Assembly (NCBI GenBank): GCA_035559535.1
Contig: DATMBG010000002.1
Coordinates: 1-64,000 of the forward strand
DNA: 64,000 bases
Origin: Candidatus Limnocylindrales bacterium
Lineage (GTDB): Bacteria; Moduliflexota; Moduliflexia; Moduliflexales; JAUQPW01
Direction: 5' to 3'
The translations under genes were made by a program, and so were the position numbers. A model generated the notes under the pieces. The model made no database searches. It saw only the letters and a program-made list of their open reading frames with translations, and was not told where the DNA came from. This document shows positions 56,904 through 59,958 of the stretch, in pieces; position 1 is the first letter of the stretch; the number at the start of each line of letters is the position of its first letter.

Positions 56904-57226
56904 ATCCTATAGAGCCGAGATGTCAATCTTAATCACAAAGCACACAAAGCCCTTTGGGTGCTTCGGATACATCGCGGTTTTATAAATTCCGTGACCTTTT
57001 AAAACCCGATCAAAAATTACCAAAGTATAGCCTATTACCTTTCCCTCCCTCGTTTCACAGGGGAGGGAACTTTGCTTCCAAGTCCCTTCCCCTGCAGAGC
57101 GGGGGAAGATCAGGAAGGGGGTCCCTCTTCCACGCTGGGGAGAGGGAAACTGGCAAATCTCCAGATTAACTCCCCAACTTCCTCTCCCGAAGCTTCGGGA
57201 GAGGAAGTTGGGGGTGAGGGTAGGGG
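56904..57226. other. Intergenic with several palindromes
   Basis: 323 bases between leuA (downstream side) and the methyltransferase start. Pyrimidine-rich hairpins occur at about 57040-57135 and a 42-base perfect palindrome lies at 57172-57213. No remnant of the missing LeuA C-terminal domain is seen. Confidence 0.6.
57172..57213. repeat. 42-bp perfect palindrome
   Basis: Each half begins CCCCAACTTCCTCTCCCGA and the centre is AAGCTT. It starts 14 bases past the leuA stop and can form a long hairpin in the leuA transcript, though without a T-run. Same family as 44402-44459. Confidence 0.75.
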
Positions 57227-58384
57227 TTATTCCAATCTAAACGCCTGAGCAATTCTCCTCAAATCCTCATCGACAACCTCCTTTTTCGAATCGGCTACTT
57301 CCAGAAACTTCATATGGACTTTTTCAAATACCTCATCGGTGAAGATATATCCCAATTCTCGCATTCGAAAACGGAGAGCATGCCGCCCTGAGCGGGCTGT
57401 CAGGATGATTTTGTGGGCAGGAGCTCCCACGACCTCCGGGGGGATAATCTCATAGGTTTTCCGATCCTTTAGAATCCCATCTTGATGGATACCGGAAGAG
57501 TGGGCGAAGGCATTGGCCCCGACAATCGCCTTGTTGGGTTGTACAGGAATATTCATCAATCGGCTTACAAGCTGACTGGTTGCGTAAATCTCCTGAGTAC
57601 GGATGCGAGTTTCCGCATCAAAATAATCTTTTCGGGTATAAAGCGCCATGACAACTTCTTCCAGAGAGGTATTTCCCGCACGTTCCCCAATCCCATTGAC
57701 GGTTACCTCAACCTGAGTGGCTCCATTCTCAATGGCGGTAAGAGTATTAATCGTGGCAAGACCCAAATCGTTATGGCAATGAACACTTAAAGTAACCCTA
57801 TCGGTGACCGGTACACGCTCCCGGATTTGCCGAATCAATTCCCCAAACTGTGCAGGTACTGCATAGCCAACCGTATCGGGGATATTAACCACGGTTGCAC
57901 CTGCTTTGATAACAGCTTCGATAACCCGGCAGAGATAGTCTGGATCACTTCGAGAGGCATCTTCGGTGGAGTATTCCACATCTTCGGTAAATTTCTTGGC
58001 GTATTTGACCGCCTCAACTCCCATCTCCAAACACTGTTCCCTATTTTTCCTGAGTTTTTTATCTACATGGATATCCGAAGTACCTAACACCATATGAATC
58101 CTGGGTCTTTCCGCAAAGCGTATGGCTTCCCATAAGGCATCTATATCTTTTTGAATCGTCCTGGCAAGTCCGGTAATCACGGGGCCCTTAATTTCCCGGG
58201 CGATACGCTTAACTGCTTCTAAATCGCCCGGAGAAGAAGCAGGAAAACCTGCTTCGATAACATCTACATTTAATCGAACTAATTGACGGGCTATCTCCAG
58301 TTTTTGTTCTGCGTTTAATTTGGCTCCAGGTACCTGTTCCCCATCCCGCAAAGTGGTGTCAAAAATCATGATAAATTTGCTCAT
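57227..58384 (-). CDS. leuA: 2-isopropylmalate synthase, lacking the regulatory domain
   Basis: 385 residues. The LeuA barrel is complete: DTTLRDGEQ (9-17), RIHMVLGTSDIH, VHCHNDLG (metal HxH), NGIGERAGN, and FAHSSGIHQDGILK. It condenses acetyl-CoA with 2-oxoisovalerate in leucine synthesis. Usual LeuA is about 500 residues; here the chain stops after the linker (VVDEDLRRIAQAFRLE), so the leucine-sensing C-terminal domain is absent. Homocitrate synthase is similar in length but lacks these LeuA blocks. Expression is probably controlled by the leader peptide upstream. Confidence 0.87.
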   Translation of the reverse strand: MSKFIMIFDTTLRDGEQVPGAKLNAEQKLEIARQLVRLNVDVIEAGFPASSPGDLEAVKRIAREIKGPVITGLARTIQKDIDALWEAIRFAERPRIHMVLGTSDIHVDKKLRKNREQCLEMGVEAVKYAKKFTEDVEYSTEDASRSDPDYLCRVIEAVIKAGATVVNIPDTVGYAVPAQFGELIRQIRERVPVTDRVTLSVHCHNDLGLATINTLTAIENGATQVEVTVNGIGERAGNTSLEEVVMALYTRKDYFDAETRIRTQEIYATSQLVSRLMNIPVQPNKAIVGANAFAHSSGIHQDGILKDRKTYEIIPPEVVGAPAHKIILTARSGRHALRFRMRELGYIFTDEVFEKVHMKFLEVADSKKEVVDEDLRRIAQAFRLE

Positions 58385-58469: not shown

Positions 58470-58504
58470 AAAAAAGCCATGGACAACTTTGTTGAACCAT
58501 GGCC
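58470..58504 (-). terminator. Second terminator in the leuA leader
   Basis: GCCATGG ... CCATGGC with a shorter inner CAAC/GTTG pair, then a T-run on the minus strand. It lies right after the first terminator in the direction of transcription. Confidence 0.75.
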
Positions 58505-58538
58505 AAAAAAAATGCCATGGGTTTTTAGCCCATGGCAT
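58505..58538 (-). terminator. First terminator (attenuator) in the leuA leader
   Basis: A 10-bp perfect stem ATGCCATGGG/CCCATGGCAT with a 7-base loop, then eight T's on the minus strand. Its 5' arm partly overlaps the CTACATGC segment that can pair with GCATGTAG in the end of the leader gene, so an antiterminator is possible. Confidence 0.85.
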
Positions 58539-58563
58539 GTAGGAGAGTTAAGGGTTACACCGA

Positions 58564-58656
58564 TTACGCCCCTCTACATGCGATGGGCTTCTTAAGAAGG
58601 AGGAGCCCATCCAGAAGGCTAAGTAAAAGGGTTTGTAATCGGATTAAACCGGTCAT
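58564..58656 (-). CDS. leuL: Leucine-rich leader peptide
   Basis: 30 residues (MTGLIRLQTLLLSLLDGLLL...), 11 of them Leu, including four consecutive Leu codons. It ends 26 bases before the attenuator hairpin. GTAATCGG over and just past the stop codon can pair with CCGATTAC inside the peptide gene, giving the pause/antitermination geometry of leucine attenuators. A good ribosome site is not obvious next to the ATG. Confidence 0.8.
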   Translation of the reverse strand: MTGLIRLQTLLLSLLDGLLLLKKPIACRGA

Positions 58657-58760
58657 CTTATTTAGATCTTGATAAAATAGATAAAAAATCCCCCTCCTGG
58701 TCTGATAAGGAAGGGATAAAAACCTTTAGAATTCATCTCTTTCAGCTCTGCTCTTAATCA

Positions 58761-58790
58761 AGAGTAGAATCTCTTCCTTTATTTTGTCAA
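58761..58790 (-). promoter_or_regulatory. Promoter of the leuL-leuA unit
   Basis: On the minus strand TTGACA (58785-58790), then an 18-base spacer and TACTCT (58761-58766). It lies about 105 bases upstream of the leader gene. The -10 is imperfect. Confidence 0.55.
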
Positions 58791-59043
58791 GGATTTTTAT
58801 TTAAAATTTTTGGAAAATGGCTTGACGGCTAAGGAAGAAGCAGTTTAAGTACTATCCATCCGCTCCCATGGGGCCTCAGTCATTAACTTAACGGCCTTGG
58901 GAGGGTACATGAGGTTTTAGCAGCGCGTTCTTTCAAGGCTTTATAGAAGGATAAACCGGGTAGGGCTTACGCATAAAGATCGGAGCAGATCTTAGGCTCT
59001 TAAAATCCATCAGTAACCTTAAAATCTTAGGAGTGTCGGGATT
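58791..59043. other. Spacer between leuA promoter and DapA-like gene
   Basis: 253 bases between divergent units. Nothing convincing besides a GGAGGGTA near 58900-58910. Confidence 0.4.
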
Positions 59044-59958
59044 ATGAATTCAAATTTTGAAGGAATTTTTCCGGTTCTGGCCATTCCCTTTGATGAGAAG
59101 GGTCGGTTTGATGAAGAAAGCCTGCGGCGACTCATTGAGTTTCAGATCCGATGTGGGGTTCATGGCGTGGTTATTTTCGGATTGGCCAGTGAGGTTTATA
59201 AACTCACCGATGAGGAACGAAAAATCATTTTACAGGTCGTGGTAGATCAGGTGAAGGGACGGATACCTATCCTTGCAGGGGCAGAGCATACCGGTACGGA
59301 AGCCGCCGTTCAACGGAGTAAGACCATGGAAGACCTGGGGACTCAGGGGCTTATGCTGACTCCTCCTTCTCTGATCAAACCGGATGCCGAGGGGATTTTC
59401 GACTATTATCAGGCAGTTTCAGATGCCGTTGGTATCCCTATTATGATTCAGGATGCTCCAACCTGGACCGGGATTACCTTACCCCCTTCCCTGCTGGTTC
59501 GCATGATGAAGGAGATTGAAAAGGTGAAGTATGTAAAAGTAGAAGCCCCTCCAACCGGTCTTAAAATGTCCAGGATTATTGAATTGGGCGGGGACGCTGT
59601 AAAAGTATTCGGAGGCTATGGAGGCCTGTACTTCTTGGAAGAACTCAAACGAGGGATGTGTGGAAGCCTTCCGGGATGTGCCTTTCCGGAGGTTTTCGTC
59701 CAGATTTACAACTTCTTTAAAAAAGGTCAGGAACGAGAAGCGGAAGCTCTTTTCCACAAATATCTACCCCTGTTAGTCTTCCAACTGGCTTCTTTGGATG
59801 TTCTCATCCAGGTTCAGAAAATCATTCTCCACAAGGGAGGAATTTTCCAATCCGATTATGTTCGAAGACCTGCCACTCCCATCGATGAAATAACCCGAGC
59901 GGAACTGGATAGATTCTTGGATACACTTCCGTTAGCGGTTTTTAACCAATCTTCTTGA
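59044..59958 (+). CDS. DHDPS/NAL-family lyase
   Basis: 304 residues of the class I aldolase DapA superfamily. The Schiff-base lysine is K165 (VKYVKVEAPP). The usual catalytic Tyr (YN.P) is replaced in IQDAP (Gln136), and the GTTGE loop reads GLASE, so it is not a standard DapA; another keto-acid aldolase is likely. Its own ATG comes after AGGAGTG. Confidence 0.78.
   Translation: MNSNFEGIFPVLAIPFDEKGRFDEESLRRLIEFQIRCGVHGVVIFGLASEVYKLTDEERKIILQVVVDQVKGRIPILAGAEHTGTEAAVQRSKTMEDLGTQGLMLTPPSLIKPDAEGIFDYYQAVSDAVGIPIMIQDAPTWTGITLPPSLLVRMMKEIEKVKYVKVEAPPTGLKMSRIIELGGDAVKVFGGYGGLYFLEELKRGMCGSLPGCAFPEVFVQIYNFFKKGQEREAEALFHKYLPLLVFQLASLDVLIQVQKIILHKGGIFQSDYVRRPATPIDEITRAELDRFLDTLPLAVFNQSS

Follow-up and report, generated by a model that had tools for sequence, protein, structure and literature searches.

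Between a putative promoter and a leuA gene that ends early, a leucine-rich reading frame and two terminators stand in a row on the minus strand of the 64,000-nucleotide stretch of DNA analysed here (the window). This arrangement raises two questions: is transcription of leuA controlled by leucine supply, and what kind of enzyme is being controlled? By every computational test, the locus is a leucine attenuator, of a known kind and new in its lineage. We put the probability at about 0.85 that it is a ribosome-mediated leucine attenuator controlling a second, short LeuA isozyme. Two of its features are unusual: a truncated isozyme is gated beside a normal LeuA, and the two terminators are linked.

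Leader reading frame and promoter

The leader frame (MTGLIRLQTLLLSLLDGLLLLKKPIACRGA) runs on the minus strand from an ATG at 58656 to a TAA at 58564 and has 30 codons, 11 of them for leucine and four of these consecutive (LLLL, codons 18–21), just as the first-pass annotation had described it. Such a composition is rare: among the 792 short ORFs of the window, the leader is the only one with at least 11 leucines and an LLLL run, and 3 of 33,748 shuffled ORFs were equally leucine-rich.

The promoter proposed for this frame stood in part. Its −35-like hexamer, TTGACA (58785..58790, minus strand), is perfect and is kept in the other genome of the genus, but the −10-like hexamer, TACTCT (58761..58766, minus strand, 18 nt from the −35), is weak, matching the consensus at 3/6 positions, and a consensus scan found no promoter upstream of the leader. 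Both hexamers come from sequence reading, and they suggest a transcription start ahead of the leader. Neither genome of the genus has a clear Shine-Dalgarno sequence at the leader ATG (58656, minus strand). A third terminator-like hairpin followed by T6 lies 5' of the leader frame (58716–58683, minus strand), with arms that are not kept in the second genome.

Terminators and competing RNA structures

Both terminators had been taken for perfect hairpins, which is true of the one nearer the leader. Terminator 1 (58505..58538 with its T-run, minus strand; hairpin 58538–58512) has a perfect 10-bp stem and a 7-nt loop. Terminator 2 (58470..58503 with its T-run, minus strand; hairpin 58503–58476) is strong but not strictly perfect, with a 7-bp stem, a 2x1 internal loop, four more pairs and T6. 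A simple terminator scan reports terminator 1 alone. The upstream neighbour gene (59044–59958, plus strand) is divergent, so the hairpins cannot terminate any upstream gene.

The leader RNA is far more stable than its shuffles (z = −5.0), and its pairing scheme is the classic 1:2, 2:3, 3:4 layout. The antiterminator consists of AGCCCAUC-GCAUGUAG (58589–58574) paired with CUACAUGC-CAUGGGCU (58542–58527), the latter including the entire 5' arm of terminator 1. We call its 5' half element 2 (AGCCCATCGCATGTAG, 58574..58589, leader codons 23–28) and its 3' half element 3 (CTACATGCCATGGGCT, 58527..58542). Part of this helix, GCATGTAG (58581–58574) with CTACATGC (58542–58535), had been recognised before; it exists, but the antiterminator is longer than was claimed, as AGCCCATC (58589–58582), which had been overlooked, extends it over the remainder of the terminator arm. 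Also overlooked was element 1 (GATGGGCT, 58604..58611), a partner of element 2 that mimics the 5' arm of terminator 1, i.e., GAUGGGCU (58611–58604) is a competitor for AGCCCAUC. A further pairing put forward earlier, between CCGATTAC (58642–58635) and GTAATCGG (58567–58560, overlapping the leader stop codon), is likewise present when the leader is free of ribosomes.

Folding the RNA with and without a stalled ribosome had been suggested as a check, and the result agreed with attenuation. The ribosome was modelled as covering the A-site codon and 11 nt downstream. Terminator 1 forms with P = 0.98 when no ribosome is present, with P ≤ 0.05 when the A-site is at Leu codons 14, 15, 18 or 19 (also at Asp16 and Gly17), and with P of 0.97–0.98 when the ribosome is anywhere from codon 23 through the stop. 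At Leu codons 4, 7, 10–12 and 20–21, the effect of a stall is small or partial and terminator 1 mostly forms. In folding, the antiterminator excludes the terminator, and the position of the ribosome decides between them. An excess of Leu codons among the positions where the antiterminator is on was not used as evidence: it is partly mechanical, because any ribosome upstream of element 2 counts as on.

We propose that the switch would work as follows. With Leu-tRNA plentiful, a ribosome translating the leader would arrive at the stop codon and cover element 2, terminator 1 would form and transcription would stop, with terminator 2 as a backup. With Leu-tRNA scarce, the ribosome would stall at the Leu codons and cover element 1, element 2 would pair with element 3, depriving terminator 1 of its 5' arm, and transcription would reach leuA. 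A leader that is not translated would keep terminator 1 in its default fold.

The second terminator

CCATGG arms are common to both terminators, which allows the 3' arm of the first to pair with the 5' arm of the second. With the ribosome stalled, this cross-terminator hairpin has P 0.99 (0.87 at L044, the nearest other short-LeuA lineage) and in folding lasts until approximately 6 nt of the 3' arm of terminator 2 have been made. A ribosome at the stop codon prevents it altogether, and terminator 2 then has P 0.97–1.0. The 3' arm of terminator 1, once freed by a stall, would thereby hinder terminator 2, and folding suggests that one stall may disarm first one terminator and then the other. When the stalled state is folded to equilibrium, terminator 2 comes back (P ~0.73 in the window, 0.46 in G001, the other genome of the genus, and 0.49 at L044), so the chain is a kinetic possibility only and read-through is perhaps partial. 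A duplication of a terminator also yields cross-pairing automatically, so the chain need not be an adaptation.

The double terminator was called unusual in the first-pass annotation, and the comparison with relatives agrees: G000, G001 and L044 have two terminators, most deltaproteobacterial relatives have one, and there is no clean second terminator in L035 or L132.

Conservation among relatives

The sole other genome of the genus is G001 (record JAUQPW01). Its leader frame has two codon differences, both synonymous, its terminator 1 is identical, and its terminator 2 is altered in the loop region only. The RNA from the promoter to the leader is altered by indels.

The closest homologues of the short LeuA (64–75% identity) are mostly deltaproteobacterial and full length (~503 aa). 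Most have a Leu-rich ORF of 20–36 codons upstream of leuA, and in about 30 deltaproteobacterial genomes the homologous leuA has a similar layout of Leu-rich leader and terminator. The terminators are closely alike (GGCCATGGG...CCCATGGCC), and the distance from leader stop to terminator is 23–28 nt in 33 of the 34 loci that have a recognisable terminator (25 nt in the window). In all 34, the end of the leader (element 2) pairs with the 5' arm of the terminator before the 3' arm is made (P 0.67–0.99 at the best stall), and in all 34 this pairing has P 0 when the ribosome is at the stop codon. Leaders also fit their own arms better than those of other loci, with a mean of −20.4 kcal/mol for own pairs vs −16.8 kcal/mol for swapped ones; none of 20,000 permutations was as good, a count that is not a probability because the rows share ancestry. 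For the window leader, the values are −26.3 kcal/mol with its own arm and, averaged over those of other loci, −13.8 kcal/mol. The leader frame and its pairing are conserved in relatives, as the first-pass annotation would have it, and there is good support for leucine attenuation through ribosome stalling from the stall simulation, this conservation, the homologous leaders of about 30 other genomes and the co-adapted pairing.

Equilibrium terminator probability suits the window and its near relatives and was rejected as a general test. Most deltaproteobacterial loci keep the full terminator at equilibrium even when stalled, so their switch must be kinetic, and we therefore used the pre-terminator (kinetic) fold.

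Comparing the lengths of leaders and LeuAs, as had been advised, showed that Leu-rich leaders are widespread, that most of the related LeuAs are ~503 aa, and that four short ones group together. In the tree, these four come from the window, G001, L044 (a Spirochaetales MAG) and L132 (G386), with SH-aLRT 93; their sister is the full-length LeuA of G035 (SH-aLRT 95 for the set of five), and the five are nested in a 45-row clade of attenuator-type leuA. The label 'Myxococcota' on some tree rows stems from where NCBI files MAGs called 'Deltaproteobacteria bacterium' and carried no weight here. All four short leuA genes and G035 keep the Leu-rich leader and the terminator; the simplest account is therefore a single loss of the regulatory domain in this group, with the attenuator retained. 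Other short LeuAs are not part of this pattern: those of L037 (2744–3922) and L015 are ~380 aa, end at about the same point and have no Leu-rich leader, and none was found before that of L007. Among LeuAs, the regulatory domain has thus been lost more than once.

At the threshold used, 393 genomes from the Spirochaetota side (the phylum of G063, the genome of L044) contained no short-LeuA relatives besides the known one. G063 has neither a further LeuA match nor, beyond an aconitase-like protein, a LeuC; the MAG may be incomplete, or the enzyme may have another role. Within the genome of the window, the terminator pattern occurs at the short leuA locus only; it occurs in 53 of 297 sampled genomes of the phylum of Desulfacinum, and a reversed control pattern had no match in any genome. 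Joint arrival of attenuator and leuA by transfer would fit these sequence data.

The short LeuA and its full-length partner

The gene behind the terminators (57227..58384, minus strand) encodes 385 aa and, as had been noted, ends after the catalytic and linker parts. A Pfam search finds the HMGL-like and HCS_D2 domains, both complete, and no match to the regulatory domain, and a search 3' of the gene for a remnant of that domain found none, the positive control being detected. The protein scores 600.3 bits against NCBIfam leuA_bact, passing the equivalog cut-off of 598.7, and keeps 94 of 94 near-invariant positions (i.e., those unchanged in ≥98% of 64 long LeuAs). With complete domains and all of these positions kept, it is a maintained catalytic LeuA and not a decaying gene. 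It is also under strong purifying selection: it is 97% identical to its counterpart in G001, with codon differences that are synonymous in 57 cases and non-synonymous in 10 (dN 0.011, dS 0.259, dN/dS about 0.04). Just 3' of the gene (57130–57225, minus strand) is a G+C-rich inverted repeat (CCCAACTTCCTCTCCCGAAGCTTCGGGAGAGGAAGTTGGGG) that is poorly kept in G001 and could be an interspersed element.

In other LeuAs, the missing C-terminal domain binds leucine and has a regulatory role. By analogy, the short LeuA is probably leucine-insensitive, and because it retains the catalytic portion of 2-isopropylmalate synthase without the leucine-binding regulatory domain, it should work while a full-length LeuA is inhibited.

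The same genome encodes such a partner, a full-length LeuA of 513 aa (L033, 6525–8066) which lies far away in the tree. Its gene lies in an ilvB-ilvH-ilvC-psd-pssA-leuA cluster (gene names read from translations), and its C-terminal part, the extension where LeuAs of this family have their regulatory domain, matches the corresponding region of relatives. The genome also has leuB and a LeuC-like/LeuD-like pair; no Leu-rich leader was found before its long leuA, ilvB or leuC. The first-pass annotation suggested that attenuation takes the place of end-product inhibition. This may hold for the short isozyme, but it does not hold for the cell, because a full-length LeuA is also present. Our best reading is that the short LeuA is probably a leucine-insensitive isozyme made on leucine shortage. 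This suggests a division of labour in which a feedback-inhibited LeuA serves normal growth and a probably uninhibitable one is kept off by attenuation until leucine is exhausted.

Alternative explanations

The RNA switch could work as described and yet the short LeuA could make something other than 2-isopropylmalate for leucine (e.g., another chain-elongation product), in which case a leucine gene would be the source of the inherited leader. The presence of a full-length LeuA in the genome favours this, as does the Spirochaetales MAG of L044, where the only LeuC match is aconitase-like. Plant MAM synthases are relatives of 2-isopropylmalate synthase which lack the regulatory domain and have new substrates, and the best PDB match of the short LeuA, 6e1j, is presumably a plant protein of this kind, although the entry is named 2-isopropylmalate synthase. 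We nevertheless consider another product unlikely, given the 94 near-invariant positions kept, the leuA_bact cut-off passed and the conserved Leu codons of the leader, which are easiest to understand if it is leucine supply that is regulated.

Readings without a leader-peptide switch fare much worse. The weak −10 and the lack of a Shine-Dalgarno sequence at the leader would suit plain tandem terminators beside a chance Leu-rich frame, but there is no same-strand upstream gene for them to terminate, and chance accounts poorly for a leader that changed at synonymous sites alone, for the related leaders and terminators of ~30 other genomes and for pairing that is co-adapted; we regard this as very improbable. 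A T-box or other metabolite-sensing leader would explain why the 5' leader is long and strongly structured. An Rfam search of the locus gave no relevant leader, T-box or riboswitch match, however, 12 related loci had no match at gathering score, and the Leu-rich frame and stall geometry already account for the structure, leaving this the least probable of the alternatives.

The leucine attenuator can also be extended into a bolder scheme, a double-locked leucine switch. One stall would disarm both terminators in a chain, the released arm of the first capturing the 5' arm of the second; the off-state would be very tight; a leucine-insensitive emergency LeuA would stand beside the feedback-controlled one; and attenuator and short enzyme would move between phyla as a unit. 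We hold this whole only tentatively and find it somewhat doubtful.

Comparison with known systems

The enterobacterial leu attenuator (leuL) resembles that of the window in its Leu-rich leader peptide, its competing 1:2, 2:3 and 3:4 helices and its terminator before leuA. The window differs in having two terminators, no shown sequence relationship and no Rfam match (the enterobacterial family being Leu_leader, RF00512), and it gates a lone truncated leuA paralogue, whereas the enterobacterial attenuator gates leuABCD. The leu leader is cited in PMC1183508 as the paradigm for codon choice.

Closer to the window are the deltaproteobacterial leuA leaders, with a homologous leuA, a Leu-rich leader, a stop 23–28 nt before a GCCATGGG-type terminator and a leader 3' end that pairs with the 5' arm of the terminator. 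They differ in that their LeuA is ~503 aa with the regulatory domain and they mostly have one terminator, whereas the window has a short LeuA and two. Plant MAM synthases, Leptospira LeuA2 and archaeal 2-isopropylmalate synthases (IPMS) consist, like the short LeuA, of a catalytic part and linker domain without the leucine-binding domain; to our knowledge, none is controlled by a leader-peptide attenuator, and the window protein is instead closest to bacterial leuA_bact.

Tandem terminators are also described in the rimP leader, where one has a possible antiterminator (PMC2965389). Unlike in the window, the rimP antiterminator belongs to an extra terminator upstream, and the part of that source on which we draw describes no amino-acid leader peptide for rimP.

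A terminator shared beyond leucine

In the open-access literature, we found no paper on deltaproteobacterial leucine attenuators or on their shared terminator, subscription papers being outside the scope of the search. There thus appears to be an undescribed group of attenuators in Deltaproteobacteria/Desulfobacterota, common in sulfate reducers and their relatives, which uses one terminator sequence for leucine, tryptophan, other aromatic and lysine genes. None of those tested belongs to an Rfam family. Within the phylum of Desulfacinum, the GCCATGGG...CCCATGGC terminator also stands behind leader frames rich in Phe/Tyr, Trp or Lys (L101, L102, L104–L107, L109, L110, L112, L113, L119–L121, L123, L124, L129 and L130). 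Those rich in Phe/Tyr precede genes for an aminotransferase, DAHP synthase and 2-oxoacid:ferredoxin oxidoreductase, those rich in Trp precede trpE, trpD and a trpB-like gene, and the Lys-rich leader precedes the gene for dihydrodipicolinate synthase (DHDPS).
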